Source of the DNA: Oscillospiraceae bacterium
GTDB taxonomy: Bacteria > Bacillota > Clostridia > Oscillospirales > Oscillospiraceae
DNA: 64,000 nt
Direction: 5' to 3'
Assembly: GCA_017429325.1 (NCBI GenBank)
Contig: JAFRPC010000003.1
Coordinates: 1 to 64,000, forward strand
Shown here: positions 29,541 through 56,146 of the stretch, piece by piece
Position numbering within the stretch: the stretch's first letter is position 1
Layout of the letters: each line of letters starts with the position of its first letter
Made by a program: the position numbers and the translations under genes
The notes under the pieces: generated by a model
Seen by the model: only the letters and a program-made list of their open reading frames with translations
What the model was told of the DNA's origin: nothing
Database searches by the model: none

Positions 29541-31001
29541 ATGAGACCCTTTCTGGACAAGGATTTCCTGCTCAGCACGGAAACGGCGAAGAAGCTGTAC
29601 CACGAAATTGCGGAACAACTGCCCATCCTTGACTACCACTGCCACCTGGACCCGCGGGAAATATACGAGGACCGGCGCTTTGAGAACATCACCCAGGTCT
29701 GGCTGGGCGGCGACCACTACAAATGGCGGCTCATGCGCTCCTTTGGGATCGAAGAGAAGTATATCACCGGCGACGCCACGGACCGGGAGAAGTTCCAGGC
29801 CTGGGCCGAGACCCTGGCCCTGGCCGTCGGCAACCCCCTCTACCATTGGACCCACCTGGAGCTCAAAAACTACTTTGGCTTCGAGGGCCCTCTGACCCCG
29901 GAGAACGCGGAGGCCGTCTGGACCCTCTGCAATGCCCAGCTTGCCAAGCCGGAGTTCTCCGCCCGCAATCTGCTCCTCCGCTCCAAGGTGGAAGTCATCT
30001 GCACCACCGACGACCCGGCGGACAGCCTCAAATGGCACCGGAAGCTTGCCGGGGACGACAAAACCTCCCCTGCTTGCAGGGGAGGGGGACCGGCCTCAAG
30101 GCCGGTGGAGGGGTCCATTCCGTCCGAAGCAGCTGCCTTTCCCGTCAAGGTGCTGCCCTCATACCGCCCCGATAAGGCGCTGGGCCTGGAAAAACCCGAC
30201 TATCTGGACTATCTGGCTCGCCTCGGCGGCCCGCAGAGCTTCCGGGCTTTGGTTGACGCGCTGAAAGACAGATTGGACTACTTCGTCTCCCTGGGCTGCC
30301 GGGTCAGCGACCACGGCCTCGCTGCGGTGCCCTTTGCCCCCGCGGCGGAGGATTTGGTGGAGCATATCTTCCAAAACCGCCTGGCGGGCGTCCTGCCCTC
30401 GGCGCTGGAGGAAAAGCAGTTCAAGACTGCCCTCCTGGTGGAGCTGGGCAGGGCCTATCATGCAAAGGGCGTCGTGATGCAGCTCCACTTCGGCGTCATC
30501 CGCGATTTGTCGAAGCGGGTTTACCGCCGACTCGGCCCCGACGCCGGGATTGACTCCATCGGCGACCAGGCCTCCATTTCTGAGCTGGCAGCCTTCCTGA
30601 ACGCCCTGGACGAGACCGGCCAGCTGCCGAAGACGGTGCTCTATTCCCTGAATCCCAACGACAACACCGCCGTCGAGACCGTCATGGGGGCCTTCCAGAC
30701 CGGGGAGGCCCGGGGCAAGCTCCAGCACGGCTCCGCCTGGTGGTTCAACGACCACAAGCGGGGAATGCAGGCCCAGCTCGAAAGCCTGGCCGCCGAAGGC
30801 CATCTGGCGACCTTTGTCGGGATGCTCACCGACTCCCGCAGCTTCCTCAGCTGCGCCCGCCACGAGTACTTCCGCCGCATCCTCTGCGACTTGCTCGGCG
30901 CCTGGGTCGAAAACGGCGAGTATCCCGACGACAAGGCCCTGCTGACCCGCATCGTCAGGGGCGTCTGTTACGACAACGCAGGTGCCTATTTCGGATTTTG
31001 A
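29541..31001 (+). CDS. uxaC: Glucuronate isomerase with an in-frame palindrome insertion
   Basis: The 486-residue enzyme isomerises D-glucuronate to fructuronate, the first step of the operon. DYHCHLDPREI carries metal-binding histidines, with TTDDPAD, QLHFGVIRD and WWFND also conserved. It is about 15-20 residues longer than usual because a 52-bp palindromic repeat (30063-30114) is translated in frame as residues 175-191 (SPACRGGGPASRPVEG). The peptide sits in a loop just before FPVKVLPSYRPDKAL, so activity may be kept. ATG 29541 has AAAGGAG. The gene ends 23 bases from a convergent transporter gene. Confidence 0.94.
   Translation: MRPFLDKDFLLSTETAKKLYHEIAEQLPILDYHCHLDPREIYEDRRFENITQVWLGGDHYKWRLMRSFGIEEKYITGDATDREKFQAWAETLALAVGNPLYHWTHLELKNYFGFEGPLTPENAEAVWTLCNAQLAKPEFSARNLLLRSKVEVICTTDDPADSLKWHRKLAGDDKTSPACRGGGPASRPVEGSIPSEAAAFPVKVLPSYRPDKALGLEKPDYLDYLARLGGPQSFRALVDALKDRLDYFVSLGCRVSDHGLAAVPFAPAAEDLVEHIFQNRLAGVLPSALEEKQFKTALLVELGRAYHAKGVVMQLHFGVIRDLSKRVYRRLGPDAGIDSIGDQASISELAAFLNALDETGQLPKTVLYSLNPNDNTAVETVMGAFQTGEARGKLQHGSAWWFNDHKRGMQAQLESLAAEGHLATFVGMLTDSRSFLSCARHEYFRRILCDLLGAWVENGEYPDDKALLTRIVRGVCYDNAGAYFGF
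30063..30114 (+). repeat. In-frame palindromic repeat inside uxaC
   Basis: ACCTCCCCTGCTTGCAGGGG, then AGGGGG, then ACCGGCCTCAAGGCCGGT and GGAGGGGT: two hairpins within imperfect outer ends ACCTCCCC/GGAGGGGT. Same sequence as 36662-36713 in polA and the split copy at 49522-49648. Confidence 0.92.
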
Positions 31002-31024
31002 AAAAAACAGTCAGAAATCCAATC

Positions 31025-32776
31025 TCACAGAGAGAACCTTGCGGCGTAGTCGTCGTAGGCGCTTTGGAAGGCTTGCGGGTCGTCGTCCTTCAGACGTTTT
31101 TGACCGGCGTGGGTATCAAAGGAATCGTCCTCCAGCTCCAGCATGGCCAGGGCGATGTTGGAGCAGTGGTCTCCGACGCGCTCAATGCTGGTGAGCAAAT
31201 CGTTGAAGACGAAGCCCTGCTTGATGGTGCAGACGCCCTGCTGAAGCCGCTCCACATGGTGGCGCTTGGCTTTGTCGCAGAGGTCGTCGATGAGCTGCTC
31301 CAAGGGCTCGACCCGTGCGGCCTGGGCCAGATCATTCTGCGAAAACGCCTCCGTCGTCAGGCGCACGATCTCCCGCACGGCTGCGCTGAGCACGGAGAGC
31401 TCCCGGGTGGCCTTGTCGGAGAAATCGACCTTCTTATCGTGGATCTCGGCGGCGCTTTCTGCGATATTCAGCGCGTGGTCGGAGATGCGCTCAAAGTCCG
31501 TCAGGGTGTGCAGGTACTTGGAGACATCTTCATTTTGACGGCGGGTCATATCCCGACCGGTCAGCTTGACAAGATAAGAGCCCAGGGCGTCCTCGTAGCG
31601 GTCCACGTCGCTTTCCATGCGCTTGACCTCTTCAAAGCCGTTCCTGGAGTAGTTTGCCGTGAGCGCCAGCGCCGCGGACAGCGCTTCCCGGGAGCGCTCC
31701 GCCATATCCAGGATCGTCAGGCGGCTCTGCTCCACGGCGAGGGCCGGGTGCGCCAGGAAGCGCTCCTCCAGCCGGAGGGTCAGCTCATCCGCCGGGGTCT
31801 TCTTGTCCTTGATCAGCAGGCGGACCAAAGCCTCCAGCCCGTCGGTGAAGGGCAGGAGCAGCAGCACCATGGCGAAGCGCAGGATCGTATTGACCAGCGC
31901 CAGTGAGAAGGGATTCATGACCTTGGACAGGAAATCAAAGTGGAAGAAGGCGTTCGCCAGATAGAACAGGGCGGTGCAGACGAACACGCTGAGCGCCGCG
32001 GCGACGAGATAGACCGCCGCGGTCCGTTTGCCGTCGGGGTTCGCACCCAGGGCTGAGAGCAGGACCGGGAAGGCCGCGCCGATGGCGACGCCCATGAGCA
32101 GCGGAAGCGCCGCCTCAAAGCTCATGGCGCCGGTGACGGAGAGGGCCTGCACGATACCGACGGCAGCCGAGGCCGATTGCAGGATGGCCGTGAAGACCGT
32201 GCCGACCAGGATGCCCAGCAGCGGATTGGAGAGGGAGGCCAGGGTCCCGGTGAACCAGGGCTGCTTGCCGAGCCCGGACACCGCGCCGCTCATAGCGCTC
32301 ATGCCGAACATCAACACCGCAAAGCCCATCAGGATGTCGCCGACATGACGGCGCTCCGGCTTTTTTGAGAAGACCCGGAGAAAAACGCCGATGACGGCCA
32401 CCACACCGGTCAGCGTGGCGGTGGAGAGCAGGCTGAGCACGCCGCTGCTGCCCTCAATATAGCTGAGGCTGATGACCCAGCCAGTGACGGAGGTGCCGAA
32501 GATCGCGCCCAAAATGACGCCGATGGCCTGCCGCAGCTTCATCATCCCGGCGTTCACAAAGCCCACCACCATGACGGAGGTGGCGGCTGAGGACTGGATC
32601 ACGCCGGTGACGCCGGTGCCGAGCAGCACGCCCCGGAGCGTTGTGCTGGACAGCCGGTAGAGCACCAGCTCCAGCTTGTTGCCTGCGACTCGCTTCAGCC
32701 CGTCGCCCATCAGCGTCATGCCGAACAGGAACAGCGCAATGCCGCTGCAAAGAGAAATAATTTCAGATATTTCCAT
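31025..32776 (-). CDS. Na/Pi cotransporter family protein with PhoU domain
   Basis: The 583-residue protein has two inverted Na_Pi_cotrans repeats, each with a QSS motif (GVIQSSAATSVMVVG and AILQSASAAVGIVQ), about eight membrane helices to residue 330, and a cytoplasmic PhoU-like helical domain (about 350-560). NptA-type carriers couple Na+ to phosphate. GGGGTGAAG precedes the ATG and a TATAAT lies at 32804-32799. It is divergent from a paralogue. Confidence 0.92.
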   Translation of the reverse strand: MEISEIISLCSGIALFLFGMTLMGDGLKRVAGNKLELVLYRLSSTTLRGVLLGTGVTGVIQSSAATSVMVVGFVNAGMMKLRQAIGVILGAIFGTSVTGWVISLSYIEGSSGVLSLLSTATLTGVVAVIGVFLRVFSKKPERRHVGDILMGFAVLMFGMSAMSGAVSGLGKQPWFTGTLASLSNPLLGILVGTVFTAILQSASAAVGIVQALSVTGAMSFEAALPLLMGVAIGAAFPVLLSALGANPDGKRTAAVYLVAAALSVFVCTALFYLANAFFHFDFLSKVMNPFSLALVNTILRFAMVLLLLPFTDGLEALVRLLIKDKKTPADELTLRLEERFLAHPALAVEQSRLTILDMAERSREALSAALALTANYSRNGFEEVKRMESDVDRYEDALGSYLVKLTGRDMTRRQNEDVSKYLHTLTDFERISDHALNIAESAAEIHDKKVDFSDKATRELSVLSAAVREIVRLTTEAFSQNDLAQAARVEPLEQLIDDLCDKAKRHHVERLQQGVCTIKQGFVFNDLLTSIERVGDHCSNIALAMLELEDDSFDTHAGQKRLKDDDPQAFQSAYDDYAARFSL

Positions 32777-32982
32777 GTCTTCACCCCTTTCGCGTCTTAT
32801 TATAACACATCAAGTTTAATTCTGCCATAGCTTTCGTGTATTTTTTATAAAAATCAGCAGGAAAGACTGTTTTTTTGAGAGAAAATGTGATAAACTGAAA
32901 CCCAATGGGCCCTGCTGCTCCGCAAAGGGAACGGCCTGCGCCTTTTATCAAGAAACAACAAGATTGGAAAGGTATTCTGTTT
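32777..32982. promoter_or_regulatory. Divergent region between two Na/Pi transporter genes
   Basis: AT-rich. A leftward TATAAT is at 32804-32799 with weak -35. Rightward, GATAAACT near 32889 may be a -10. I see no clear Pho box. Confidence 0.35.
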
Positions 32983-34782
32983 ATGGATATTTTTCATGTG
33001 ATCTCCCTGCTGGGCGGCCTTGCCATGTTTCTCTACGGGATGCGCCTGATGGGCGACTCCCTGAAGGAAAACTCCTCCGGCACCCTGAAGCGCGTCATGG
33101 GCAAGGTAACGGACAACGCCTTTAAGGCCTTCCTGTTGGGCGTGGCGGTCACAGCCCTGATCCAGTCCTCCACCGCCACCATTGTCATCACCGCCGGTCT
33201 GGTCAGCGCCGGGATCCTGACGCTGCGGCAATCCCTTGGCATCCTCGTCGGCGCCAACTTAGGCACCACGGTGACGGGCCAGATCATCCGTCTGCTGGAC
33301 ATCGACGCCTCCGGGACCTCCTTCCTTCGCTTTTTGCAGCCCTCCACCCTGGCGCCCATTGCCCTGATCATCGGGATCGTCCTGATCATGGGCAGCTTCT
33401 TCAAAAACGCCCGCTCTGTCGGCAACATCGCCATTGGCTTCGGCATCCTGTTCTCCGGCCTGCTCAATATGACCGGCGCGGTGAACAGTCTGACGGAGTC
33501 CGGCGTCTTTGAACGCCTCTTCGCCAGCTTAGGGGACAATCCGCTGCTGGGCTATCTGACCGGCGCGGCAGTCGCCTTCATATTGCAGAGCTCCTCCGCC
33601 GCGGTGGGCATCCTCCAGGCCTTCTCGGCCACGGGCATGTTGGCCTTCAAATCCATCTACGCCGTCATCGTGGGCATCTACCTGGGCGACTGCGTTACCA
33701 CCGCCATTGTCTGCTGGATCGGCACAAAGGCCGATGCGCGGCGGGTCGGCATCGTGAACATCCTCTACAACTTAGGCAAATCCGTCCTGGTCCTGGCCGC
33801 CATCGCCGTGGTCCACAGCCTCGGCCTGCTGGACGGGCTCTGGGACCGGACCGCCAACTCCGGCATGATCGCCAACACCAACTCCATCTTCAATCTGGCC
33901 TGCGCCCTGCTCCTGCTCCCCACCCTGCGCTTTTTGGAGCGGCTCAGCTACAAGCTCGTCCGGGACGTTCCCGTCAAGGAGAGCAAGTTCAAGTCCGTCA
34001 CCGACGCCCTGAACCCGGTCTTCTACGACACCCCTGCCCTGGCCTTCCAGAGCTGCTACAATCTGCTGCTCAGCGTCTTCGCTGCCTCCCGGACCAACAT
34101 CGAGAAGTCCTTCCGGCTGCTGAACAAATACGACCCCGCCCTGCACAGGGAGATCCTGGCGGACGAGGACGAGATCGACCGCATGAGCGACCGGGTGAAC
34201 AATTACATGGTTGGATTTTTGCCCCATCTGCAAAACCAGAGCCATGTGGCGATGGTGGACCAGTATTACCGCGTCACGTCGGAATTTGAACGTCTGGGAG
34301 ACCACGGCGTGAATATTGCCGAGCACGCCGCCACCCTGCATAAAAACAACACGGTCCTGTCTGCCGCGGCCCTGTCAGAGCTGGCGGTCGTGGAAAGCGC
34401 CATCATGAATATCCTGGACGAATCGGAGCATACCTTTCACAGGCGGGATGAGGAAGCGGCCCGCCGGATCGAGCCCCTGGTGCAGGTGATCAAGGAGCTC
34501 ACCGCCGTTCTGAAGAAGAACCATTTGAAGCGCATGAGCACCGGCGAATGCAACGTCTATGCCAACGCGACCTATACGGACCTGCTGATCGAATTCCAAC
34601 GGATCGGCGACGTGTGCTCCAACGTGGGCATTGCGACCATCATCCGGCTTCACCCGGATCTGGCGGACCACGAGCACGTGTATTTTGACCGGCTCCATGC
34701 GGGCGGCGACGAGACCTTTGATGCCGCCTATGAGCGGGCGCACCAACGCTACTTTGCCCTCCTCCCAGGCGGAACGAAATAA
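32983..34782 (+). CDS. Na/Pi cotransporter family protein with PhoU domain (paralogue)
   Basis: The 599-residue protein has MFLYGMRLMGDSLKE at the N-terminus and LIQSSTATIVITAGLV plus ILQSSSAAVGILQA as the paired transport motifs. A C-terminal PhoU-like domain (about 355-580) is present. It is a divergent paralogue of the leftward neighbour with moderate similarity. GGAAAGG precedes ATG 32983; an ORF extension to 32905 is possible but crosses the likely promoter. Confidence 0.92.
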   Translation: MDIFHVISLLGGLAMFLYGMRLMGDSLKENSSGTLKRVMGKVTDNAFKAFLLGVAVTALIQSSTATIVITAGLVSAGILTLRQSLGILVGANLGTTVTGQIIRLLDIDASGTSFLRFLQPSTLAPIALIIGIVLIMGSFFKNARSVGNIAIGFGILFSGLLNMTGAVNSLTESGVFERLFASLGDNPLLGYLTGAAVAFILQSSSAAVGILQAFSATGMLAFKSIYAVIVGIYLGDCVTTAIVCWIGTKADARRVGIVNILYNLGKSVLVLAAIAVVHSLGLLDGLWDRTANSGMIANTNSIFNLACALLLLPTLRFLERLSYKLVRDVPVKESKFKSVTDALNPVFYDTPALAFQSCYNLLLSVFAASRTNIEKSFRLLNKYDPALHREILADEDEIDRMSDRVNNYMVGFLPHLQNQSHVAMVDQYYRVTSEFERLGDHGVNIAEHAATLHKNNTVLSAAALSELAVVESAIMNILDESEHTFHRRDEEAARRIEPLVQVIKELTAVLKKNHLKRMSTGECNVYANATYTDLLIEFQRIGDVCSNVGIATIIRLHPDLADHEHVYFDRLHAGGDETFDAAYERAHQRYFALLPGGTK

Positions 34783-34794
34783 ACGAAACGAGCG

Positions 34795-34843
34795 CGACGC
34801 ACCGTTTCCGGATTCGCATGATCCGGAAACGGTGCGTCTTTTT
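34795..34843. terminator. Bidirectional terminator
   Basis: GACGCACCGTTTCCGGAT/ATCCGGAAACGGTGCGTC, a perfect 18-bp stem, followed by TTTTTG. It serves the Na/Pi gene and possibly polA from the other side. Confidence 0.93.
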
Positions 34844-34854
34844 GCTGCTTGTGA

Positions 34855-37638
34855 TTACTTTGCCTCGTACCAGCTTCGGCCTGTTTTGGCCTCGGCGGTC
34901 AGGGGGACGCTCAGGCTCGCGGCGGCTTCCATCTCCCGGGTGACGAGGGCGGCCACGGTCTCCGCCTCGGCCTCGGGGCACTCCACGATCAGCTCGTCGT
35001 GGACCTGGAGCACTAACTTCGCCGCCAGGCCCGCGGCCTTCAGGGCCTTGTCCACCCGGAGCATCGCCAGCTTGATGATGTCCGCCGCGGTGCCCTGGAT
35101 GGGGGAGTTCATCGCCATCCGCTTGGCGGCCTCCCGGACCATATATTTTCCGTCCTTCAGCTCGGGAATGTACCGCCGCCGCCCGTAGAGGGTGGCAACG
35201 TAGCCCAGCTTCGTGCCCTGCTCCACCGTGGCGCTCATGAAGTCCCGGACCCCGTGGTATCTGCGCAGATAGCTGTCGATATAGTCCTTCGCCTCGCCCC
35301 GGCTCACGCCGATGTCCTCCGCCAGAGAGAACTCCGAAATGCCGTAGACAATGCCGAAGTTGACGGCCTTTGCGCTGCGGCGCATCTGGGGCGTCACCTG
35401 GTCGAAGGGGACCCCGAAGACCTGGGAGGCCGTGACCCGGTGGATGTCCTCGCCGGAGTTGAAGGCGGCCTGCATCGCCTCGTCCCCCGCCATATGGGCC
35501 AGGACCCGCAGCTCAATCTGGCTGTAGTCCGCGTCCACAAAGACGCAGCCTGGCGCCGGGACGAACATCTTTCGGATCTCCGCCCCCAGGTCCGTGCGGA
35601 CCGGGATGTTTTGCAGGTTGGGCTCCGTGGAGGAGAGGCGGCCCGTGGCCGTCACCGTGTTCTGGAAGGTGGTGCGCACCCGCCCGTCGGGGCCGATGAC
35701 CTTCAAAAGTCCCTCGGCGTAGGTGGCCTGGAGCTTGGTCAGGGTCCGGTACTCCAGGATGCGCCCGATGATGGGGTGCTTGCTGCGGAGCTTTTCCAGC
35801 ACCTCCGCGTTGGTGGACCAGCCGGTCTTGGTTTTCTTCCCGGCGGGCAGGCCCAGCCGCTCAAAGAGGATCTCGCCCAACTGCTTCGGGGAATTGAGGT
35901 TGAATTCCCCGTCCGCATAGCGGAACACCTCCGCCTGGGCCTCCGCGATGCGGGTCTTCAGCATTTCGTCAAAGGCGTGGAGGGCCTCGGCGTCCACCAG
36001 CACACCCTCCACCTCCATCTCCGCCAGCACGGCGCAGAGAGGCAGGTCCATTTCATAGAAGAGCTTTTCCAAGCCCTGCTCCTTCAGCCCCGCGGTGAGG
36101 GGGGTATATAATTCCAAAAGCGCGGCGGTTTCGGCCAGCAGCACGGTCTCCCGGGCGCCAAAAGCCTTCCCCCTTGGGGGAAGGTGGCGCGAAGCGCCGG
36201 ATGAGGGGTCCTCCGAGGAAGCAGCCGCCGCCCCCTGGGCGATCAGCTCCTTTTCCGTGGGCAGCTCAATCTGGCAGTAGTCGAAGGCCAGCCGGGCCAG
36301 CTCATACTTACCCCGGGCAGCGTCCAGCAGATAGGCCGCCACCTCGGTGTCGAAGACGACGCCCTCGGTGGGCAGGCAGCGCTCCAGCAGCCGCCGAAGC
36401 AGTTCCTTGGCCCCGTGGACGATCAGTTTGACCTCCCCGGAGAAAAGGGATGAGAGGCAGAAGTCCCAGGCCAGCCCCAGGTCAGCCCGCCGCAGCAGCG
36501 CGGGCTGCGCACCGTCGTCCAGGGCCAGGAGCTCCAGGTCCTCCGAGGCCGCCAGGGCCACGAATTCCGCCCGTTCCCAGCCCGCCAGCAGCGCGTCGAA
36601 CTCGGCCTTTGAGGCGGGGACCGCAGGCCCCGTACCTGTCATTGCGAGGCCAGTGCGCATAACCTCCCCTGCTTGCAGGGGAGGGGGACCGGCCTCAAGG
36701 CCGGTGGAGGGGTACTTCCCGGCATCGGAGCCGGTGGTGTTTTGCGGGCGGTCAATGACCGCCCCTACAGAGCGCAGGCGGTAACGGTCGATCAGCTTGA
36801 CGAAATTCAGCCGCACGAACAGGTCGTACAGCGCCTGCTTGTCCGGTTCCGCCATCAGCGCGTCGCCGGGGGCGAAGTCCACCGGGGCGTCCAGGCGGAT
36901 GGTCGCCAGGTCGTAGCTCAGATAGGCGCTGTCCTTTCCGGTTTCCAGCTTCTCATAGAGCTTCCCTTTCATGTTCTGGGGGGTCAGATTCTCATAGACC
37001 CCGTCCAGGGTCCCGTACTTCAGCAGCAGCTCCGTGGCGGTCTTGGGGCCGACCCCGGCCACGCCGGGGATGTTGTCGGAGCTGTCCCCCATCAGGGCCT
37101 TCAGGTCGATCAGGTGAATGGGCTCAAAGCCGTATTCGGCCCGAAAGACCGCGGGCGTGTAGTTGACGGAGCTGGTCTGCCCGGCCTTGGTGGAGACCAG
37201 CTTCACGGTGACGTGCTCGTCGATGAGCTGCAGGCTGTCCCGGTCGCCGGTGACGATGACGCAGTCCCAGCCCCCGGCGGCGCAGCGCTTGGCGACGGTG
37301 CCGATTACGTCGTCGGCCTCCCAGCCCTGGCAGGCGTAGATGGGGATGTTCATCGCCCGCAGCACGTCCTTCATGACCGGCATCTGCTGGGCCAGCTCCT
37401 CGGGCATTCCGTGGCGGGTGGCCTTGTACTGGTCGTATTTCTCGTGGCGGAAGGTGGGCCCTTTGAGGTCAAAGGCCACGCACAGGGCGTCCGGGGCCTC
37501 CTCCTGGCGCATCTTGTCCAGGATGTTCAGAAAGCCGTAGACGGCGTTGGTGTACAGCCCGTCCCGGGTGCTGAGCAGCCGCACCCCGTAAAAGGCCCGG
37601 TTGATGACGGAGTTCCCGTCCAGGATCATCAGTTTCAT
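34855..37638 (-). CDS. polA: DNA polymerase I with three palindrome-derived insertions
   Basis: The 927-residue protein has the 5'-nuclease domain (LMILDGNSVINRAFYG; VVTGDRDSLQL), a degenerate 3'-exonuclease-like middle (about 330-560) and the polymerase domain with DYSQIELRVLAHMAGD (motif A), RRSAKAVNFGIVYG (motif B) and LVLQVHDELI (motif C). Three repeats are translated in frame: a GTAGGGGC palindrome (residues about 291-298, VGAVIDRP), an ACCTCCCC-type repeat (309-326, GLEAGPPPLQAGEV) and an AGCCTTCCCC-type repeat (477-492, SSGASRHLPPRGKAF). All fall between domains. The middle domain lacks obvious exonuclease acids, common in Firmicutes. ATG 37638 has GAGG upstream. Confidence 0.96.
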   Translation of the reverse strand: MKLMILDGNSVINRAFYGVRLLSTRDGLYTNAVYGFLNILDKMRQEEAPDALCVAFDLKGPTFRHEKYDQYKATRHGMPEELAQQMPVMKDVLRAMNIPIYACQGWEADDVIGTVAKRCAAGGWDCVIVTGDRDSLQLIDEHVTVKLVSTKAGQTSSVNYTPAVFRAEYGFEPIHLIDLKALMGDSSDNIPGVAGVGPKTATELLLKYGTLDGVYENLTPQNMKGKLYEKLETGKDSAYLSYDLATIRLDAPVDFAPGDALMAEPDKQALYDLFVRLNFVKLIDRYRLRSVGAVIDRPQNTTGSDAGKYPSTGLEAGPPPLQAGEVMRTGLAMTGTGPAVPASKAEFDALLAGWERAEFVALAASEDLELLALDDGAQPALLRRADLGLAWDFCLSSLFSGEVKLIVHGAKELLRRLLERCLPTEGVVFDTEVAAYLLDAARGKYELARLAFDYCQIELPTEKELIAQGAAAASSEDPSSGASRHLPPRGKAFGARETVLLAETAALLELYTPLTAGLKEQGLEKLFYEMDLPLCAVLAEMEVEGVLVDAEALHAFDEMLKTRIAEAQAEVFRYADGEFNLNSPKQLGEILFERLGLPAGKKTKTGWSTNAEVLEKLRSKHPIIGRILEYRTLTKLQATYAEGLLKVIGPDGRVRTTFQNTVTATGRLSSTEPNLQNIPVRTDLGAEIRKMFVPAPGCVFVDADYSQIELRVLAHMAGDEAMQAAFNSGEDIHRVTASQVFGVPFDQVTPQMRRSAKAVNFGIVYGISEFSLAEDIGVSRGEAKDYIDSYLRRYHGVRDFMSATVEQGTKLGYVATLYGRRRYIPELKDGKYMVREAAKRMAMNSPIQGTAADIIKLAMLRVDKALKAAGLAAKLVLQVHDELIVECPEAEAETVAALVTREMEAAASLSVPLTAEAKTGRSWYEAK
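36163..36209 (-). repeat. AGCCTTCCCC-type palindrome inside polA
   Basis: CTTCCCCCTTGGGGGAAG plus GGCGCGAAGCGCC, ended by GGATGAGGGG. Same family as 42992, 53952 and inverted copies near 56646 and 60490. Confidence 0.85.
36662..36713 (-). repeat. ACCTCCCC-type palindrome inside polA
   Basis: Same 52-bp repeat as in uxaC but read on the opposite strand and in another frame, so the encoded peptide differs (TGLEAGPPPLQAGE). A GTAGGGGC palindrome follows at 36746-36768, also in frame. Confidence 0.9.
36746..36768 (-). repeat. GTAGGGGC palindrome inside polA
   Basis: Minus-strand GTAGGGGCGGTCATTGACCG is read in the GTA-GGG-GCG frame, avoiding the TAG used as stop elsewhere. Confidence 0.9.
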
Positions 37639-37664
37639 GACAGCACCTCGTTTGAGAGGAGTTT

Positions 37665-37777
37665 GTAGCGCGGGCAATCTGCCCGCCTATGCGAGGGATC
37701 AGGCAACAGGCAACAGGCAACGGGCAACAGACCCGCCTGTAGGGACGGCTCTCTGCGGACAAGCGATGTTTGCCCCT
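37665..37777. repeat. Compound palindromes and GGCAACA tract between gltX and polA
   Basis: GTAGCGCGGGCAATCTGCCCGC (from 37665), a 7-bp-period GGCAACA/GGCAACG tract (about 37700-37730), then GTAGGGACGGCTCTCTGCG and the inverted GCCCCTAC that carries the gltX stop. Confidence 0.8.
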
Positions 37778-42920: not shown

Positions 42921-43140
42921 TTCTTACTTTTTACTTTACGCCGGTGCGGGGGACGGCGGACAAGCAATGCTTGTCCCTACAGGCGGGATAGCCTTCCCCC
43001 TGGGGGGAAGGTGGCATCGGGCGTCTCCCGCAAGCCCGATGACGGATGAGGGGGCGTCCGTGCGAGGGACGGAGGGCCGATGTGGGCATCGGCCCCTACG
43101 GGCGGGTCTGTTGCCTGTTGCCCGTTGCCTGTTGCCTTAG
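42921..43140. repeat. Mosaic of at least five repeat families
   Basis: In order: ACTTCTTACTTTTTAC tract, GGACAAGCAATGCTTGTCCCTAC, an AGCCTTCCCC...GATGAGGGGG repeat (about 42992-43055), GGCCGATGTGGGCATCGGCCCCTAC, and GTTGCCTGTTGCCCGTTGCC. No gene is seen. Confidence 0.85.
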
Positions 43141-44368: not shown

Positions 44369-44443
44369 GTAGGGACGGCTCTCAGCCGTCCGGCGTGTGG
44401 TGTTCGGGAATCGTCTGAGCGGACGGCAAAGTGCCGTCCCTAC
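44369..44443. repeat. Pair of ACGGC palindromes between galT and the LCP gene
   Basis: GTAGGGACGGCTCTCAGCCGTCC from 44369 and, inverted, GGACGGCAAAGTGCCGTCCCTAC ending 44443. The two form a larger inverted pair; the second carries the galT stop. Confidence 0.85.
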
Positions 44444-48660: not shown

Positions 48661-48683
48661 CAGACCATCCTTCGTTCTCCGCC

Positions 48684-48765: not shown

Positions 48766-48797
48766 CCCGGGAATGTATTTGCAAAGGAGGCCGTTCC

Positions 48798-49517: not shown

Positions 49518-49521
49518 TAAA

Positions 49522-49648: not shown

Positions 49649-49871
49649 TCGTCTCATTTTATTTGCAGGCGTCCCACATCGGCCTGTCCCCCGAAAGAAC
49701 CGAAAGCAAAGAAGCCGTAGGGGCGCTCATTGAGCGCCCGTCCTTCCCCAAAGAGAATAAAGACCGCAATGCGGTCGGCCATCAGATAGTGAATATTTGT
49801 ATTAAGTATTTCAGAAGTGATTTTCTTGTATGTGGAATCATTTATCTTGTAATCTTTTGGAGGTTGCTTAC
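49649..49871. other. Intergenic, shifting from GC-rich to AT-rich
   Basis: Contains GTAGGGGCGCTCATTGAGCGCCC (about 49718) and then AT-rich DNA leading to the peptidoglycan-binding gene. No other gene is seen. Confidence 0.6.
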
Positions 49872-50426
49872 ATGAAGAAAATGAAAAAAACCATTGCAAT
49901 TCTCTGCATGTTTCTGATTTGCATACAGCTTATTACAATAGTAGCCAGCGCAAAGATTACTGTGCCATCAAAGCTGCCTACACTTAGACGCGGAGAAAAA
50001 TCGAATTATTTTGTCAAAGTGATGCAGATGATGCTGGTCCACTCAAACGGCGCAGACCTTGATTGTACCGGAACCTTTGGAAGCAAAACGGAGAAAGAAG
50101 TGAAGAAATTCCAAAAAAAATATGATCTTGATGTCGATGGAATTGTTGGCCCAAAAACGTGGAGCAAGCTGCTCAGCAAATGCAAACTTAAGGAAAACGA
50201 CAAAAACGACTTGGTAAAACTGGTTCAGACGATCCTCAATGAATATCGCGATAAAAATGGAGTGAAAGTTTACTACTGCGGAAAAGCAAATGGCGTCTTC
50301 AATTCTAGTACGAAAAAAGCTGTGAAACTATTTCAGAAAGAAATAATTGGTGACGATGACCCAACCGGCATTGTAGACGCAAAAACCTGGAGATATTTAT
50401 TATATTTCGCCTGCGGGGCTTATTGA
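49872..50426 (+). CDS. Secreted peptidoglycan-binding-domain protein
   Basis: The 184-residue protein has a signal peptide (KKMKKTIAIL... to VASA) and two peptidoglycan-binding type 1 domains (about 35-100 and 110-184). Each shows the LxxGxxxxxVxxLQ-like start, GTFGSKTEKEVKKFQKKYDL and VDGIVGPKTW in the first, FNSSTKKAVKLFQ and TGIVDAKTW in the second. No catalytic domain is attached. GC content is well below that of neighbours, suggesting transfer. GGAGG precedes the ATG. Confidence 0.88.
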   Translation: MKKMKKTIAILCMFLICIQLITIVASAKITVPSKLPTLRRGEKSNYFVKVMQMMLVHSNGADLDCTGTFGSKTEKEVKKFQKKYDLDVDGIVGPKTWSKLLSKCKLKENDKNDLVKLVQTILNEYRDKNGVKVYYCGKANGVFNSSTKKAVKLFQKEIIGDDDPTGIVDAKTWRYLLYFACGAY

Positions 50427-50548
50427 TTTACAATTCATACCGCGCGGATAGAAGTAACATGGACAGCGATGGCGGCAATATCTCAATGCCCAGCCGTCAG
50501 CGCAAATGCCTTCAAACAAAGTATTAACCTTGTAAAAATGGCAATAAT

Positions 50549-50578
50549 ATGAGTGCGGCACAAGCCTGCCGCACTCAT
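50549..50578 (+). terminator. Hairpin before the DUF1540 gene
   Basis: ATGAGTGCGGC/GCCGCACTCAT with a seven-base loop ends 22 bases before the ATG. A weak T-tract makes it either a terminator of the previous gene or a regulatory hairpin. Confidence 0.5.
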
Positions 50579-50600
50579 ACTATTTACAGGAGGCATTCTC

Positions 50601-50786
50601 ATGTACACCAACGATTCCTGCCATTCCGGCTCTGCCAACCACTGCATTGCCTGCACCGTGCAGCAGTGCGCCAACCACTGCGGCAAGGAGGACTACTGCT
50701 CCCTGAACAAGATCCTGGTGGGCACCCACGAGTACAACCCCACCGAGGACCAGTGCACCGACTGCAAATCCTTCCGCAAGCGCTGA
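50601..50786 (+). CDS. DUF1540 small cysteine-rich protein
   Basis: The 61-residue protein has eight cysteines in the DUF1540 spacing (CIACTVQQCANHCGKEDYC ... CTDCKSF), suggesting metal binding. Family members are common in spore-forming Clostridia but have no proven function. AGGAGG lies at ideal distance from ATG 50601. Confidence 0.88.
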   Translation: MYTNDSCHSGSANHCIACTVQQCANHCGKEDYCSLNKILVGTHEYNPTEDQCTDCKSFRKR

Positions 50787-50943
50787 TACTGAACTCCCAT
50801 AGAAACCTTTAATCTGTTCCGGCAGGAATTGTGCCATACTTCGTTGTCGTCCTTGCCGGGCGTCAAGCCCGCCTGCGTCCTCCGCCTCGTCTGGCGCAAT
50901 TTCTGCTCGGAACATTTTTCAATCTTTCTATGGGAGTTCAGTA
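50787..50943. mobile_element. 157-bp element with perfect 19-bp terminal inverted repeats
   Basis: TACTGAACTCCCATAGAAA (50787-50805) is exactly inverted at 50925-50943. Just inside, GTTCCGGCAGGAATTGTGCCA is imperfectly complementary to the other flank (TGGCGCAATTT...CGGAAC), so the transcript would form a long hairpin. It starts at the DUF1540 stop codon. It carries no clear gene; it may be a MITE or a structured RNA. Confidence 0.7.
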
Positions 50944-50952
50944 TGAGGTCCA

Positions 50953-50997
50953 AGCGGTCCTGCGTCCGACAGCCGTCGGATGCAGGACCGCTCTTTG
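50953..50997 (+). terminator. Strong hairpin terminator
   Basis: AGCGGTCCTGCGTCCGAC/GTCGGATGCAGGACCGCT, one mismatch, then CTTTG. Confidence 0.75.
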
Positions 50998-51015
50998 CTC
51001 CGGACGGATTTTTTG

Positions 51016-51044
51016 TTGCAAACGCCGGAAGTCTGTGGTAAAAT
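51016..51044 (+). promoter_or_regulatory. Promoter of the AAA-CYTH gene
   Basis: TTGCAA (51016-51021), 17 bases, TAAAAT (51039-51044). Confidence 0.75.
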
Positions 51045-51078
51045 AGACAGAGAAAACCATAGAAAGGCAGGCGCTACC

Positions 51079-52188
51079 GTGGAAAAGAATATCGTTAAAA
51101 TCGTCCTCACCGGCGGACCGGCGGCGGGCAAGACGACCCTGATCTCCCGCATCCTGAAGGAATTCAAGCAGGACGAGGGCTGGCGCGTCATCACCATTCC
51201 CGAGACGGCCACCGACCTCATCAGCGGCTTCGGCATCAAGCCCTTCGGCAACTGCATGTCCATGCTGGAGTTCCAGGATTACGTGGTGGCCGACCAGCTC
51301 CACAAGGAGCGCCTGGCCCTCCAGGCGGCCCAGGTGGTGCCGGAGCCCAATGTCCTGATCGTCTATGACCGAGCCCTGCTGGACGACAAGGCCTACATCA
51401 CCGACGCCGAGTTTGAGCAGGTCATCGCCAAATTCGGCCTTACCACCGAGACGGCGATGGCGAAATACGACGCGGTCATCCATCTCGTCACCTGCGCCAA
51501 GGGCGCGGAGTTTGCCTACAACCTGGGCAACGCCGCCCGCACCGAGAGCCTGGACGCCGCTGTGGAGATGGACGACAAGACCCTCCGGGCCTGGAGCTCG
51601 CATCCCAACCTGAAAATCGTGGACAACGCCGTGGACTTCGAGAAGAAGATCCGCCGGGCTATGCGGGAGATCTTCCGGGTGGTGGGCCGTCCCGAGCCCA
51701 TGGACAAGAAGCACAAGTACCTCATTGCCATGCCGGATATGAACAAGCTGGTGGTGAACCGAGGCGCGGTGCCCTTCGAGATGACCCAGAATTATCTGGT
51801 CATCACGAATCCCCGCATCGAACGCCGCATCCGCAAGCAGAAGAACGGCTCCGAGTACCTCTACTTCTACACCGAAAAGCACCTCATGGAGGACGGGACC
51901 ATGTGGGATACCGAGCGCCCCATCTCCGCGAAGGCCTACGAGAGCTATCTGCTGGAGGCCGAACCGGAGCTCCAGCCCGTCCACAAGGTCAAGTACCGCT
52001 TCAACGACAAGCGCCAGCGCTTTGAGATCGACGTGTACCCGTTCTCCAGGGAGCGGGCCGTGATGTTTGCCTACGCCGGAGCGGACGAGGCGGAGGTGGT
52101 ACCGCCTCCCGAGATCGAGATCCTGCGGGAGGTCACGGGCGACCCCGAGTACAAGAATAAGACCCTGGCAAGGCTCCAGCGGCTGTGA
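51079..52188 (+). CDS. NadR/Ttd14-like AAA ATPase with C-terminal CYTH-type domain
   Basis: The 369-residue protein has a P-loop GGPAAGKTTLISRIL, ETATDLI and NVLIVYDRALLDDKAY in the kinase-like AAA_28 domain (about 1-190). A beta-rich CYTH-like domain follows (about 200-345) with ERRIRKQKNGSEYLYFYTEK, the basic/acidic strand pattern of triphosphate-tunnel enzymes. The fusion is known in bacteria and in Drosophila Ttd14; the substrate is unclear, probably a nucleotide or triphosphate. The start is GTG 51079 with AAAGG; ORF extension upstream overlaps the promoter. Confidence 0.85.
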   Translation: MEKNIVKIVLTGGPAAGKTTLISRILKEFKQDEGWRVITIPETATDLISGFGIKPFGNCMSMLEFQDYVVADQLHKERLALQAAQVVPEPNVLIVYDRALLDDKAYITDAEFEQVIAKFGLTTETAMAKYDAVIHLVTCAKGAEFAYNLGNAARTESLDAAVEMDDKTLRAWSSHPNLKIVDNAVDFEKKIRRAMREIFRVVGRPEPMDKKHKYLIAMPDMNKLVVNRGAVPFEMTQNYLVITNPRIERRIRKQKNGSEYLYFYTEKHLMEDGTMWDTERPISAKAYESYLLEAEPELQPVHKVKYRFNDKRQRFEIDVYPFSRERAVMFAYAGADEAEVVPPPEIEILREVTGDPEYKNKTLARLQRL

Positions 52189-52198
52189 CGGCGGACCC

Positions 52199-53167
52199 AT
52201 GAAAGAGCTCACCGTCAAAAAAAATGACGCCGGGCAGCGGCTGGACCGCTTCCTGGCAAAGAGCGTCCCCCTGCTGCCCGCCTCCCTGGCCCAGAAGTAC
52301 ATCCGGCTCAAGCGCATCAAAATCGACGGCAAACGGGCGGACCGGGACACGCGGCTGGCCGAGGGGAACCTGATCCAACTCTACATCAACGACGAATTCT
52401 TTGACACCCCGAAGCCGGAGAACGCATATCTCACCGTCACGGCGCCCAGACTGAACCTCGTCTACGAGGACGAGAATCTGCTCTTGGTGGACAAGAAGCC
52501 CGGCCAGGCCGTCCACCCCCACGACGGCTCCGAGTACGGCAGGACCCTGATCGACCACATCCAGGCCTATCTCTACGCCAAGGGAGAGTGGAAGCCCCGG
52601 GAGGAGAACGCCTTCGCCCCGGCCCTCTGCAACCGCATCGACCGCAACACCGGCGGCATCGTCATCGCCGCCAAGAACGCCGAGGCCCTGCGCATCCTCA
52701 ACCAGAAGATCAAGGACCGGGAGCTGGAAAAACGCTATCTCTGCGTGGTCCACGGGACGCCGAGGCCCCCGGAGGGCCGCCTGGAGGGCTACCTCTTCAA
52801 GGACGCCAAACAGAACCGGGTCTACGTGACCCAGAGGCCCCAGCCCGGCGCGAAGACCGCCGTCACCGCCTATCGGACCCTGGCGAGCCGGGCGGGCCTG
52901 TCCTTAGTCGAGTGCGAGCTGCTCACGGGCCGGACCCACCAGATCCGGGCCATGCTGGCCGCCGCCGGGACCCCCCTGCTGGGGGACGGGAAATACGGCA
53001 GGCTGGACAAGCGCTACGATAGGACTTACCAGGCCCTGTACTCCTACAAGCTGCGCTTCGCCTTCACCACCGACGCCGGCGCCTTGGCCTATCTGAACGG
53101 CCAGAGCTTCCAGGTCGAGCGCGTAGACTTCGTGGAGGAATACTTTCCAGAGCTTCTGTTGAGTTAA
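52199..53167 (+). CDS. RluA-family pseudouridine synthase with S4 domain
   Basis: The 322-residue enzyme has an S4 RNA-binding domain (RLDRFLAKSVPLLPASLAQK), then the catalytic domain with NRIDRNTGGIVIAAK, where the aspartate is nucleophile, KRYLCVVHG and GRTHQIRAML. Likely rRNA target of the RluC/D group. It follows the AAA-CYTH gene by ten bases, so it is co-transcribed. A terminator follows. Confidence 0.93.
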   Translation: MKELTVKKNDAGQRLDRFLAKSVPLLPASLAQKYIRLKRIKIDGKRADRDTRLAEGNLIQLYINDEFFDTPKPENAYLTVTAPRLNLVYEDENLLLVDKKPGQAVHPHDGSEYGRTLIDHIQAYLYAKGEWKPREENAFAPALCNRIDRNTGGIVIAAKNAEALRILNQKIKDRELEKRYLCVVHGTPRPPEGRLEGYLFKDAKQNRVYVTQRPQPGAKTAVTAYRTLASRAGLSLVECELLTGRTHQIRAMLAAAGTPLLGDGKYGRLDKRYDRTYQALYSYKLRFAFTTDAGALAYLNGQSFQVERVDFVEEYFPELLLS

Positions 53168-53231
53168 CAAAATATCTATGAATATTTCCGCCGCATAAAT
53201 AGTTTTTCACAGTTTCCACATAGTTTTCCAC

Positions 53232-53272
53232 AGCCCGCGAGGCCTGATGAATTCAGGCCTCGCGGGCTTTTT
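53232..53272 (+). terminator. Intrinsic terminator
   Basis: AGCCCGCGAGGCCTGA/TCAGGCCTCGCGGGCT, a perfect 16-bp stem, followed by TTTTT. Confidence 0.95.
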
Positions 53273-53366
53273 CCACCGCTATGGGGAAAACCCGCGAACG
53301 AAGGTCCCGTTTTGCGGAAAAACCGAAAACGATTGACATAATCTGTCCTGACTAACTTCCGTTTTT

Positions 53367-53489
53367 GTATCTATTCAGTAGCCCCCTTCGTCGTAGGGGC
53401 GGATGCCCACATCCGCCCTCGCTTGCAGGCAAAAATCGGTAGGTAGGGCCGATGTAGGCATCGGCCCCTACGGGCGACTGAACAATTAC
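53367..53489 (-). mobile_element. 123-bp MITE-like element, copy 2
   Basis: Exact reverse complement of 4942-5064 over all 123 bases. Its end (minus strand GGGTAATTG) overlaps the TAA stop of the TetM-like fusion gene, so insertion set the protein's C-terminus. Confidence 0.85.
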
Positions 53490-56146
53490 CCGTTTTTCAG
53501 ATTCTCCCCCACGGTTCCCAGCTTCTGCCGGTTCAGGTCCCTCAGAAAGCTCTCGATGTCCCCGTAGATCCGATCGATCTCCTCACCGAACTCCCGGGCG
53601 GACTGCCGCAGGACCCCGGCCCGGAGGGCCGAGACTTGAATCAGACTGTCGGAGGTAACGATGCGGACCTGCTCGTTTTTGCCGATGTCGTGGACCAGCC
53701 GCTCGATGTAGGCGTCGCCGGTCTCGTTTTCCTTGGTATAGACCACCCGGACGCCGTGGAAGCTGAAGCGCTCCCCCTTGCCGCCCTTGACCCGGTAGGC
53801 GTCGAAGACCAGTACGGTCTCCGTCCGGGTGAAGGAGGAATAGTTGGCCAGGATCTCCATGAGCCGCTCCCGAGCCTGGTCCAGGTCCTTCTCCGCCAGG
53901 GCCGCCAGCTCAGGCCAGGCGTAGATGACGTTCATCCCGTCCACCACCAACAGCCTTCCCCCTCGGGGGAAGGTGGCATCCGCCGTCTCCCGCAAGGCGG
54001 ATGACGGATGAGGGGCGTCCGTCGCCCGAAAGCCCTGGGAGGGGGCGTCCGTCTCCCGGCTCGTTTCCTGGGTGGCCCCCTTCCAAACGCTTGCCGAATA
54101 CCGGGGCCGTTTGATAGGCCCGAACTCCCGCTCTAAGATGGCCTGCAGCTCCTTCTCGCTGATGGACAGCCGCCGCCGGGCGGGGGCCAGGGCGTCCCGC
54201 TTCGGAGCCAGGACGCTCTCTAAGTGCATATTGGAGAAGACCTTGTCCCACTTCACCGTGAAGCCGCCCCCGTGGGCGCAGAAGACAGAGTCCGGCGTGT
54301 TGTCCAGGTCCGCCTCCGGGTCATAGGGGTGGGCAGCCCGGACGGCCTCGGGGTCGTGGCAGAGCTCGTAGCCCTCTACCTCCAAGGCCAGCTTGCCCAG
54401 GCCTCGGGTGTAGGCGGCTACCTCCCGGGCGTAGTCCGTCATGGCGGCCACCGGAGCGCGGCCCCGGAGCAGGCTCATGCCCCCCAGGTCCTCCGGGGTG
54501 TCGAAGGAGCCGAAGCGGGCCCGGATGTCGGTGATGGCCCGACCGATCTGGGCCGTGGGGACCTCCAGCCGGAAGCGGTACCAGGGCTCCAGCAGCACCG
54601 AGGGGACCTGCATCAGGCCCTGGCGCACGGCCCGGTAGGTGGCCTGGCGGAAGTCGCCCCCCTCGGTGTGCTTCAGATGGGACTTGCCCGCCGCCAGGGT
54701 CATCTTCATATCCGTGATGGGTGCACCGATGGCGGTGCCGACGTGCTCCTTTTCCATGAGGTGGGTGAGGATCAGCCGCTGCCAGTGCCGATCCAGCTTG
54801 TCCTCGCTGCACGAAGAGGCGAAGACCAGGCCGCTGCCACGGGGCAGGGGCTCCAGCAGCAGGTGGACCTCGGCGTAGTGCCGCAGGGGCTCGTAGTGGC
54901 CCACGCCCTCCACGGCCCGGTCGATGGTCTCCTTGTAGAGGACGCGGCCCCGGCCCAGCTCCACGGCCAGCTCGAAGCGGTCCAGGATCAGGCTCTTCAG
55001 GATCTCCGCCTGGACCTCTCCCATGAGGCCCACGGAGAGCTCCTGGAGGCGGGGGTCCCAGCGCAGCCGGAGCATGGGCTCCTCGGCCTCCAGCTGGCGG
55101 AGCTTGGGCAGCACCAGCCGGGGGTCCGTCCCGGCGGGCAGGCCCAGCCGGTAGTGCATCACCGGCTCCAGCACCGGCGCCCCGGCGGCGGCCTCGGTGC
55201 CGAAGCCCTGGCCGTTCCGGGCCGCGCTCAGCCCCACGGCGGCGCAGACCTGGCCCGGCAGCACCTCCTCCACGGCGGCGTATTTCCCGCCGCTGTAGCG
55301 GCGGAGCTGCGTCAGCTTCTCCTCCAGCCCGTCATAGGTCAGCGTGTCCCGGACCCGCAGCACGCCGCCCGTCACCTTCAGGTGGGTCAGGCGCACGCCC
55401 TGGGCGTCGTGGGAGATCTTGAAGACCCGGGCGCCGAAGGCCTCGGGCCTGGTCCGGGGCTTCAGCAGGCCCGTGAAGCCGTCCAAAAAGGCCTCGATCC
55501 CCTCCAGCCGCAGGCCGGAGCCGAAGAAGCAGGGGAAGGCCTCCCGGGCCGCCAGCAGGTCCCGCAGGGTGTCGGGGGAGAGGGCCCCCGTGTCCAGATA
55601 TTCCTCCATGGCGGCCTCGCCGCAGAGGGCCAGCTGCTCGTCCCGCCCGGCGTTGTCGGGGGAGAAGTCCACCGCCCCGTCGCCAAACTCCCGGCGCAGC
55701 TCGTCCAGCAGCTCCTCCCGGCCCCGGCGGGCCAGGTCCATCTTGGTGACGAAGAGGACCGTGGGGACCTGGTAGTGGGCCAGCAGCTTCCAGAGGGTCC
55801 GGGTGTGGGACTGGACCCCGTCGATGCCGCTGATGACCAGCACCGCGCAGTCCAGCACCTGGAGCATCCGCTCCGTCTCGGCGGAGAAGTCCACGTGGCC
55901 CGGCGTGTCCAGCAGGGTCAGCTCCCAGCCGCCCCATTCCACGTGGGCCTGGGAGGCGAAGATGGTGATGCCCCGCTCCCGCTCCAGCGGGTCGAAGTCC
56001 AGGGCCGTGTTCCCGTGGTCCACCCGCCCCAGGCTCCGCAGAAGCCCGCAGCGGTAGAGGATGGCCTCCGCCAGAGTGGTCTTGCCCGCGTCCACGTGAG
56101 CCAGCAGCCCCACGCAGGCCCGTTTGTCGCTGCCTGTCATCGTCAT
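53486..56146 (-). CDS. TetM/EF-G-like ribosomal GTPase fused to a YacP/Rae1-type NYN endonuclease
   Basis: The 886-residue protein begins as a ribosomal-protection GTPase: G1 AHVDAGKTTL, ERERGITI (switch I), LDTPGHVDF (G3), TKMDLARRG (G4), then EF-G-like domains II-V to about residue 690. Residues about 733-870 match B. subtilis YacP/Rae1: LLVVDGMNVIYAWPEL, VLVFDAYRVKGG, VVYTKENETGDAYIERL, TSDSLIQ and VLRQSAREF. Rae1 enters the ribosomal A site and cuts mRNA. The linker (711-732) is encoded by an AGCCTTCCCC palindrome. The TAA stop is in a 123-bp MITE. The tetracycline-resistance name often given to such proteins is not supported here; a ribosome-rescue or mRNA-cleavage role is inferred. ATG 56140 is an alternative start. 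Confidence 0.9.
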   Translation of the reverse strand: MTMTGSDKRACVGLLAHVDAGKTTLAEAILYRCGLLRSLGRVDHGNTALDFDPLERERGITIFASQAHVEWGGWELTLLDTPGHVDFSAETERMLQVLDCAVLVISGIDGVQSHTRTLWKLLAHYQVPTVLFVTKMDLARRGREELLDELRREFGDGAVDFSPDNAGRDEQLALCGEAAMEEYLDTGALSPDTLRDLLAAREAFPCFFGSGLRLEGIEAFLDGFTGLLKPRTRPEAFGARVFKISHDAQGVRLTHLKVTGGVLRVRDTLTYDGLEEKLTQLRRYSGGKYAAVEEVLPGQVCAAVGLSAARNGQGFGTEAAAGAPVLEPVMHYRLGLPAGTDPRLVLPKLRQLEAEEPMLRLRWDPRLQELSVGLMGEVQAEILKSLILDRFELAVELGRGRVLYKETIDRAVEGVGHYEPLRHYAEVHLLLEPLPRGSGLVFASSCSEDKLDRHWQRLILTHLMEKEHVGTAIGAPITDMKMTLAAGKSHLKHTEGGDFRQATYRAVRQGLMQVPSVLLEPWYRFRLEVPTAQIGRAITDIRARFGSFDTPEDLGGMSLLRGRAPVAAMTDYAREVAAYTRGLGKLALEVEGYELCHDPEAVRAAHPYDPEADLDNTPDSVFCAHGGGFTVKWDKVFSNMHLESVLAPKRDALAPARRRLSISEKELQAILEREFGPIKRPRYSASVWKGATQETSRETDAPSQGFRATDAPHPSSALRETADATFPRGGRLLVVDGMNVIYAWPELAALAEKDLDQARERLMEILANYSSFTRTETVLVFDAYRVKGGKGERFSFHGVRVVYTKENETGDAYIERLVHDIGKNEQVRIVTSDSLIQVSALRAGVLRQSAREFGEEIDRIYGDIESFLRDLNRQKLGTVGENLKNG
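53952..54016 (-). repeat. AGCCTTCCCC-type palindrome in the interdomain linker of the GTPase-nuclease
   Basis: CTTCCCCCTCGGGGGAAG followed by ATCCGCCGTCTCCCGCAAGGCGGAT and GATGAGGGG. Translated in frame as HPSSALRETADATFPRG. Confidence 0.9.

Follow-up and report, generated by a model that had tools for sequence, protein, structure and literature searches.

Palindromic DNA elements of several families, likely mobile, lie in frame within enzyme loops of an uncultured Oscillospiraceae genome

Palindromic repeats lie inside uxaC, polA, and a gene for a TetM-like GTPase within one 64,000-nucleotide stretch of an Oscillospiraceae genome (the whole stretch is termed the window herein), raising the question of what these repeats are and how three enzyme genes came to hold them without losing their reading frames. 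The window is contig C63 of G000, a metagenome-assembled genome (MAG) of 2,034,620 bases in 68 contigs, 73% complete. The closest named relatives of its PolA (~76-80% identical) were Oscillospiraceae, Ruminococcaceae, and Clostridia MAGs, many of them sampled from the rumen or other ruminant gut, and more remote matches were mostly Chloroflexota. In the explanation that we consider very probable, short and likely mobile DNA hairpins have left copies in frame in loops of the three enzymes, where they are predicted to be translated as tolerated linker peptides. The observation is real and well supported; the mechanism proposed for it is partly inferred.

The five palindromic repeats of the original prediction, one in uxaC, three in polA, and one in the GTPase gene, were recovered at the positions claimed, each within one intact ORF (Table 1). 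They are in frame, they fall in loops or between domains, and their peptides differ with the strand and frame of the repeat, all as predicted. A sixth piece, the third-family remnant of polA, was missing from that first list. Profile matches placed GTP_EFTU at residues 11-227, EFG_C at 517-598, and NYN_YacP at 733-873 of the GTPase protein, and an Rfam scan of the window returned nothing but a tRNA at gathering score.

Table 1. Repeats of the window and the genes that hold them (window coordinates)
Feature	Position	Strand	Reading or basis
uxaC (glucuronate isomerase) CDS	29541..31001	+	NF002794 579.3 bits vs cut-off 387; PF02614
Type-A two-hairpin element inside uxaC (core)	30064..30113	+	Repeat anatomy
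polA (DNA polymerase I) CDS	34855..37638	-	NF004397 993.6 bits vs cut-off 720
GTAG-REP GTAGGGGCGGTCATTGACCGCCC, polA site 1	36746..36768	-	Read VGAVIDRP
Type-A element, polA site 1	36663..36712	+	Gene-strand reading YPSTGLEAGPPPLQAGEV
Third-family remnant TGTCATTGCGAGGCCAGTGCGCA, adjoining the A element in polA site 1	36637..36659	+	Fuller in congener G019
Type-B element, polA site 2	36165..36208	+	Read DPSSGASRHLPPRGKA
EF-G/TetM-like GTPase fused to YacP-like NYN domain	53486..56146	-	Profile matches
Type-B element, linker between EFG_C and NYN	53954..54015	+	Read APHPSSALRETADATFPRGGRL
Type-B copy, intergenic	42992..43053	+	
GTAG-REP, TAG = stop codon of called gene 2755-3417	3414..3438	+	
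GTAG-REP, TAG = stop codon of called minus-strand gene ending there	44421..44443	-	

The anatomy of the A and B elements was established from 38 stems of two CCTYCCC types in 442,603 bases (the first G000 sample, ~443 kb), 34 of which could be oriented. All 34 followed one design, consisting of an outer hairpin (CCTCCCCTGC..GCAGGGGAGG in A; CCTTCCCC..GGGGAAGG in B), an inner hairpin that varies in sequence, and a tail (GG(T)GGAGGGG in A, GGATGAGGGG in B). Because the same inner hairpin, gccccagtgcgcacactggggc, was found within both outer types, A and B are variants built on one plan, their inner parts being interchangeable, and their earlier description as unrelated repeats does not hold. The stem pattern matched 107 times in the 2.03-Mb G000, versus 0 for the reversed control. 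A third family (D; TGTCATTCTGAGC... or TGTCATTGCGAG...) has left a remnant in the window's polA and is more complete in congeners. No empty site was close enough to show target duplication. Beside 32 Y1_Tnp loci, only scattered A/B or third-family pieces were found (single stems, tails, and ends near a few), and two third-family ends lie 88 bp apart on L193 beside a Y1_Tnp gene. Classification of A/B elements as CGTC-REPs was considered and ruled out: the available text of PMC3733652 gives CGTC-REPs as single hairpins with an 8-9 bp stem, a 4-5 nt loop, and an unpaired CGTC tag, whereas A/B elements have two hairpins and span 44-62 nt. A CGTC-like stretch often follows the A/B tail, yet inconstantly. 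Type-A elements also occur in three IMG/VR viral contigs (L232:6245, L233:49, and L234:12886).

The GTAGGGGC palindrome of polA is a GTAG-REP. Members of this family are GC-rich hairpins whose 5' foot carries an unpaired GTAG, and GTAG stood at the foot of 172 of 1,292 hairpins on both strands, 7.6 times expectation and second in rank after the overlapping TAGG. The GTAG pattern gave 337 matches in G000 versus 14 for the control, with a few places matching twice. In the 443-kb sample, 15 of the 40 TAG stop codons assigned to called genes are supplied by a GTAG-REP. Contig C31 of G000 carries a 192-codon ORF with an HUH motif and GTAG hairpins on either side; we take its C-terminus to be RAYT-like, and alignment with congeners also points to RAYT likeness. 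The C31 RAYT protein (L024) scored 22.2 bits against Pfam Y1_Tnp, just below the cut-off of 23. A second G000 RAYT (C56, L252) has GTAGCGCGGGCAATCTGCCCGC at both sides in inverted orientation, and no REPs were found near a third (C33, L279). RAYTs of congeners had REPs on both sides, each with a stem of its own. No RAYT adjoining exactly the polA GTAG stem was found; the L196 RAYT of congener G006 is flanked by a similar stem, GTAGGGGCGGCCATCGGCCGCC, which resembles the polA stem of G006 and G016. Judged by these sequences, GTAG-REPs are probably spread by RAYT transposases.

The UxaC loop offers the simplest view of one insertion site. Aligned to PDB 3iac, query residues 174 and then 201 pair with chain residues 179 and then 181, leaving one chain residue between, and the extra segment covers about residues 175-200 (30063-30140). 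Among 17 homologues aligned, out of 120 matches listed (7,993 scored), six have extra residues at this site and 11 are empty. Only two of the 17 carry the A peptide, namely P0003 (of the query's own cluster, one residue different) and P0004 (94% identical, from a JGI contig). No homologue of an unrelated lineage with the same peptide, which would have counted against the original prediction, was seen among those aligned. Relatives do not all have a bare loop, however, and some have other palindromes there: at the peptide level, P0005 and P0007 carry segments resembling translated GTAG-REPs, P0008 a GTAG-REP-like plus a third-family-like peptide, and P0064 a third-family-like peptide. At the DNA level, uxaC of congener G018 holds a full 76-bp third-family palindrome in the same place, with inverted ends TGTCATTCTGAG/CTCAGAATGACA, and the site is empty in congeners G009 and G026. 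In AlphaFold2 models built from 37- and 25-row alignments, the palindrome-encoded residues fell below pLDDT 50 both in UxaC (174-198; model mean 80.9) and in PolA (292-335 and 474-490; model mean 83.7), as did further segments at 319-342 and 401-404 of UxaC and at 660-672 of PolA.

polA site 1, which follows the 5'-nuclease domain, is the best illustration of pile-up and nesting, as seen in G005, G016, and the window species. G005 carries an inverted GTAG-REP pair there; in G003 and G004 the inverted pair has a different GTAG stem. G016 has an inverted REP pair with a third-family element in between, and G006 is like G016, with a further REP. The site holds two B elements and two REPs in G007, a B stem and A in G021, a REP and two third-family pieces in G019, and one REP in the partial polA of G002; the window species has one REP, A, and the third-family remnant. 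Only altered traces or a variant REP were seen in G008, G001, G012, and G022, no palindrome was recognised in polA of G011 and G014, and short site 1 linkers with no palindrome were found in G010, G013, G015, G017, G018, and G020, although G018 has a REP near site 2. The G003 and G004 genes (L037 and L041) are identical in the site 1 linker and different at site 2, which may reflect recombination or MAG mixing. At polA site 2 and in the GTPase linker, B elements are present in some species and absent in others. The sister species G021/G002 and G008/G007 share common flanking residues in the GTPase linker and differ in the inner hairpins, from which we infer that the inner hairpin was exchanged within an orthologous element. 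On a FastTree species tree of PolA and GTPase with linkers removed (support 0.65 for the grouping beside G000), species with a B element in the GTPase linker are scattered; this may reflect repeated gain or recombinational loss, as both fit.

Could each site instead descend from a single ancient insertion that was inherited and decayed, with no repeated insertion? A REP start of VGA.IGRPQ, or near it, is common to several species in polA site 1, so the first insertion there is likely ancestral. Against it stand the differing families and combinations at one uxaC codon position, the REP pair of G016 that encloses a third-family element, and the different inner hairpins between common flanks in the two sister pairs, and we regard this explanation as unlikely. 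Site occupancy followed genome-wide abundance: with sites scored as filled or unfilled by our own reading, decayed traces counted as unfilled, G009 omitted, and species that are not independent of one another, an intact GTAG-REP at polA site 1 went with more REPs genome-wide (9 versus 13 species; one-sided Mann-Whitney p 0.0013), and A/B elements in the polA and GTPase linkers likewise went with the genome-wide number (9 versus 13 species; p 0.0007). Against this trend, G018 (311 REP matches) and G020 (110) have no palindrome in polA site 1.

Host genes across G000 were examined in 724,468 of its 2,034,620 bases (the window and two sets of 20 stretches). Of the 58 full A/B copies in these bases, 40 are intergenic, 16 fall within called genes, and 2 sit at an edge. 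The counts are no random sample, the stretches having been picked partly for holding copies, and they rest on a simple codon-usage caller with rough gene edges; since genes were called as ORFs, in-gene copies sit in open frames partly by construction and frame-broken cases would escape. The window is richer in genic copies (4 of 5) than the rest of the sample (12 of 53, three of them in one tandem array). As about 80% of the sample was called coding, A/B elements avoid genes, yet genic copies are still common. The cores inside genes measured 44-62 nt, for the most part not divisible by three, and the frame must then be completed by other bases.

Several repeat families lie in frame inside genes, as had been predicted, and the hosts are diverse. 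Those with named domains include Maf, MoaA, TrmK, HypB, and a Toprim+DUF4093 protein, as well as CitG (A and REP), RlmD (B and REP), and HydF (third family). Further ones are a Fer4-AhpC fusion, a GntR-aminotransferase, an Orn/Lys/Arg decarboxylase-like protein, SpoIIP, MetG, NrdD (B and REP), UDG, a sigma factor, and an SLH protein. Profile matches flank or span the insert in Maf, MoaA, CitG, TrmK, HypB, RlmD, MetG, NrdD, GntR-aminotransferase, and UDG. Elements lie between domains in, for example, MoaA, MetG, NrdD, GntR-aminotransferase, and the GTPase, and within a domain match in UxaC, Maf, TrmK, HypB, and UDG. Separately, L123:11081-14080 encodes a 1,000-aa ORF in which an A element and a GTAG-REP together form a 132-bp unit, present three times in tandem; the result is a protein repeat built from two palindrome families. 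The ORF was excluded from the named hosts, having no Pfam or NCBIfam match.

This range of hosts bears on an idea of PMC3733652, which in its available text names DNA polymerase I, UvrABC, and RecBCD, that insertions are selected for altering proteins, above all repair and replication enzymes. The three elements of the window's polA, the recognisable palindromes in polA of many congeners, and the presence of UDG and NrdD among the hosts are in its favor. Nevertheless, we judge it very unlikely here, given hosts as mixed as UxaC, Maf, MoaA, CitG, HypB, TrmK, RlmD, MetG, HydF, SpoIIP, a sigma factor, and an SLH protein, and given that the peptide at a given loop varies between species in sequence, length, and family, leaving no fixed function. 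The mixed hosts speak against repair genes as special targets.

The reading phase of GTAG-REPs within genes was uniform. Among the strong GTAG-REPs, 8 of 180 in the first sample and 7 of 80 in the second lie on the same strand inside genes, and all 15 are in phase GTA-GGG (phase 0), a number that includes tandem copies (three in L123 and two each in L121 and L220). Sense phase 2 puts TAG in frame and is impossible inside a gene, but 233 of 263 REPs are free of stops in sense phase 1, and avoidance of stop codons is thus not enough to explain 15 of 15 in phase 0; a preference for the peptide could be a further explanation. Opposite-strand REPs were few in G000 genes. Among 26 GTAG hairpins scored as inside genes, many on the opposite strand look like chance hairpins of coding sequence, and these were left out.

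Strong hairpins within coding sequence might also suggest segments that are removed or skipped after transcription, by self-splicing or ribosome hopping, and hence left untranslated. In hosts with known domains the same frame is kept past the element, which skipping would not call for, and the same-strand genic GTAG-REPs share a single phase; this frame evidence is one-sided, genes having been called as ORFs, and we nonetheless hold the skipping explanation to be highly improbable. An assembly or binning artefact is hardly credible: although G000 is a 68-contig, incomplete MAG and support from a second source covers uxaC and not the polA and GTPase sites of the window, the same A peptide occurs in UxaC of P0004, on another contig and from another source, making assembly error unlikely for uxaC, and palindromic linkers recur at the same polA site in congener assemblies of several projects.

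Translated, in-frame copies of likely mobile hairpins remain the explanation we favor, and a course of events can be proposed for them. GTAG-REPs would be moved by RAYT transposases, and the two-hairpin A/B elements would be mobile as well. Copies would enter genes more or less at random, with nearly all harmful ones lost. The survivors would be those in intergenic DNA, those at a gene end where the TAG of GTAG serves as the stop codon, and, within genes, those in a loop with an open frame and a total insert length divisible by three. Once a loop has accepted one such peptide, it probably tolerates further landings, so that more palindromes may pile up, nest, and swap inner hairpins. At polA site 1, an early REP pair may have opened the linker, with later elements nesting there.

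RAYT genes with REPs inside their own frame add a possible origin for such coding palindromes. A G026 RAYT was searched against 120 genomes of the family and found matches in 37 at 1e-15; of 65 loci, 59 yielded 60 parsed RAYT genes and 6 were left unparsed. An inverted GTAG-REP pair lies inside the ORF in 37 of the 60 genes, one REP in 3, and none in 20, which is no estimate of prevalence, as the query itself is of the internal type. Among the 20 genes with no internal REPs, 16 have GTAG-REPs near both ends. The internal-REP RAYTs come from other genera of the family (loci L235-L284 and L210); in the window's own genus, all parsed RAYTs are of the flanking or bare type. The HUH motif lies between the internal REPs, about 40 residues past the first and 15 ahead of the second. 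The sense hairpin is read in phase GTA-GGG in 36 of 38 cases (one gene adds a second, unlike hairpin), and the opposite-strand hairpin in phase 2 in 33 of 37. REPs within one RAYT gene are on average 96% identical (18 of 37 pairs are identical), and sense REPs of different RAYT genes are 56% identical, with 30 distinct sequences. Copies like the internal REPs are dispersed in their own genomes, with matches in all five genomes tested; G023 had 36 such matches, six of them in RAYT genes, and the control 0. On a midpoint-rooted RAYT tree with REP columns removed, whose sampling favors the internal type, Fitch parsimony made the internal state ancestral and counted 7 changes; on the same tree, the C31 RAYT of G000 clusters with a gene of the internal type.

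The phases of the REPs in RAYT ORFs are those seen in polA of G016 and G006 (VGAAIGR. ... GGRP.AAPT), so that REPs here may be coding sequences from birth. We tentatively suggest, as a reading less probable than not, that the Oscillospiraceae REP pair is a coding module from birth, which would enter other genes in the same phase as a linker peptide, the transposase thus spreading a piece of its own coding sequence through the proteome. If this is true, one sequence would be transposase peptide, DNA substrate, and spreading linker, and the spread of REPs, an old question, would become directly testable. The literature searched yielded no account of RAYTs that carry a REP pair internally.

Much of this has precedent. 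In-frame REPs are already known, and the available text of PMC3733652 reports intragenic REPs, with DNA polymerase I as one of the hosts, differing REPs near the same recB site in two Xanthomonas, and REPs that donate TAG stop codons in other organisms. The elements of the window's genus resemble published GTAG-REPs and RAYTs (PMC3733652, PMC2817692, and PMC6006769, as far as their text was available) in the GTAG tag, the GC-rich hairpin, copies in the hundreds, an HUH transposase gene with its own REPs, donated TAG stops, and REPs in genes including DNA polymerase I. In contrast to those accounts, the same loops are here refilled across a genus with other palindromes nested, and many RAYTs of related genera hold the REP pair inside the ORF; the available text of PMC6006769 describes genes flanked by REPs, and the phrases "inside the," "internal," and "located within" are absent from it. 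The list of phyla with GTAG and CGTC repeats, in the part of PMC3733652 available, has no Firmicutes/Bacillota. Three Bacillota do stand in the table of genomes searched in the accessible part of PMC12306157, under a wider REP definition, and thus only the GTAG/RAYT form can be called undescribed, within the literature searched. These intragenic repeats were not found described for this family in that literature.

The parallel with Rickettsia palindromic elements (RPEs) drawn in the original prediction holds as a likeness, in that both are palindromes in frame inside conserved genes (PMC2229807, available text); the nearest known kind for one of the families is instead the GTAG-REP/RAYT system (PMC3733652 and PMC2817692, in the parts available). 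RPEs, likened here by description and not by sequence, measure 105-146 bp and belong to Rickettsia, and, unlike for them, a likely transposase is known here for one family. That review, in its available text, tells of an RPE-containing guanylate kinase that is both translated and active. The same source describes in-frame MITEs of enterobacteria and Neisseria, likewise small repeats fused in frame to genes; these measure ~100-200 bp, are bounded by terminal inverted repeats, and mostly end in TA, features not seen for A/B. REPINs (PMC3116915, available text) resemble the inverted REP doublets in polA of G003, G004, G005, and G016, except that REPINs are described in extragenic space and these lie within coding sequence; in the window's polA, a single REP and not two inverted REPs as a unit was found.

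New, as far as searched, are the recurrent filling of fixed loops by several families, the exchange of inner hairpins within what looks like an orthologous element, and RAYT genes, from other genera of the family, whose own frame contains two REPs in inverted orientation. These results extend the phenomenon of in-frame palindromes to an uncultured gut family, with a likely transposase, and suggest a route by which selfish DNA can enlarge protein linkers, with one and the same loop filled, nested, and refilled across related species.

The window also contains repeats of other kinds. A 125-bp perfect inverted repeat with GTAG hairpins lies at 4940-5064 and 53367-53491, 48 kb apart, and an 88-bp unit with a GTAG hairpin occurs in three tandem copies at 5544-5823. 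Short tandem repeats (GGCAACA-like, AGGTAAGAAGTAAT) were seen near REP clusters at 3540-3571, 27675-27734, 37696-37730, 56407-56438, and 56563-56595. A 132-nt direct repeat (94%) joins 1951-2082 and 2753-2884, and the most frequent 13-mer of the 443-kb sample was GGCAACAGGCAAC.
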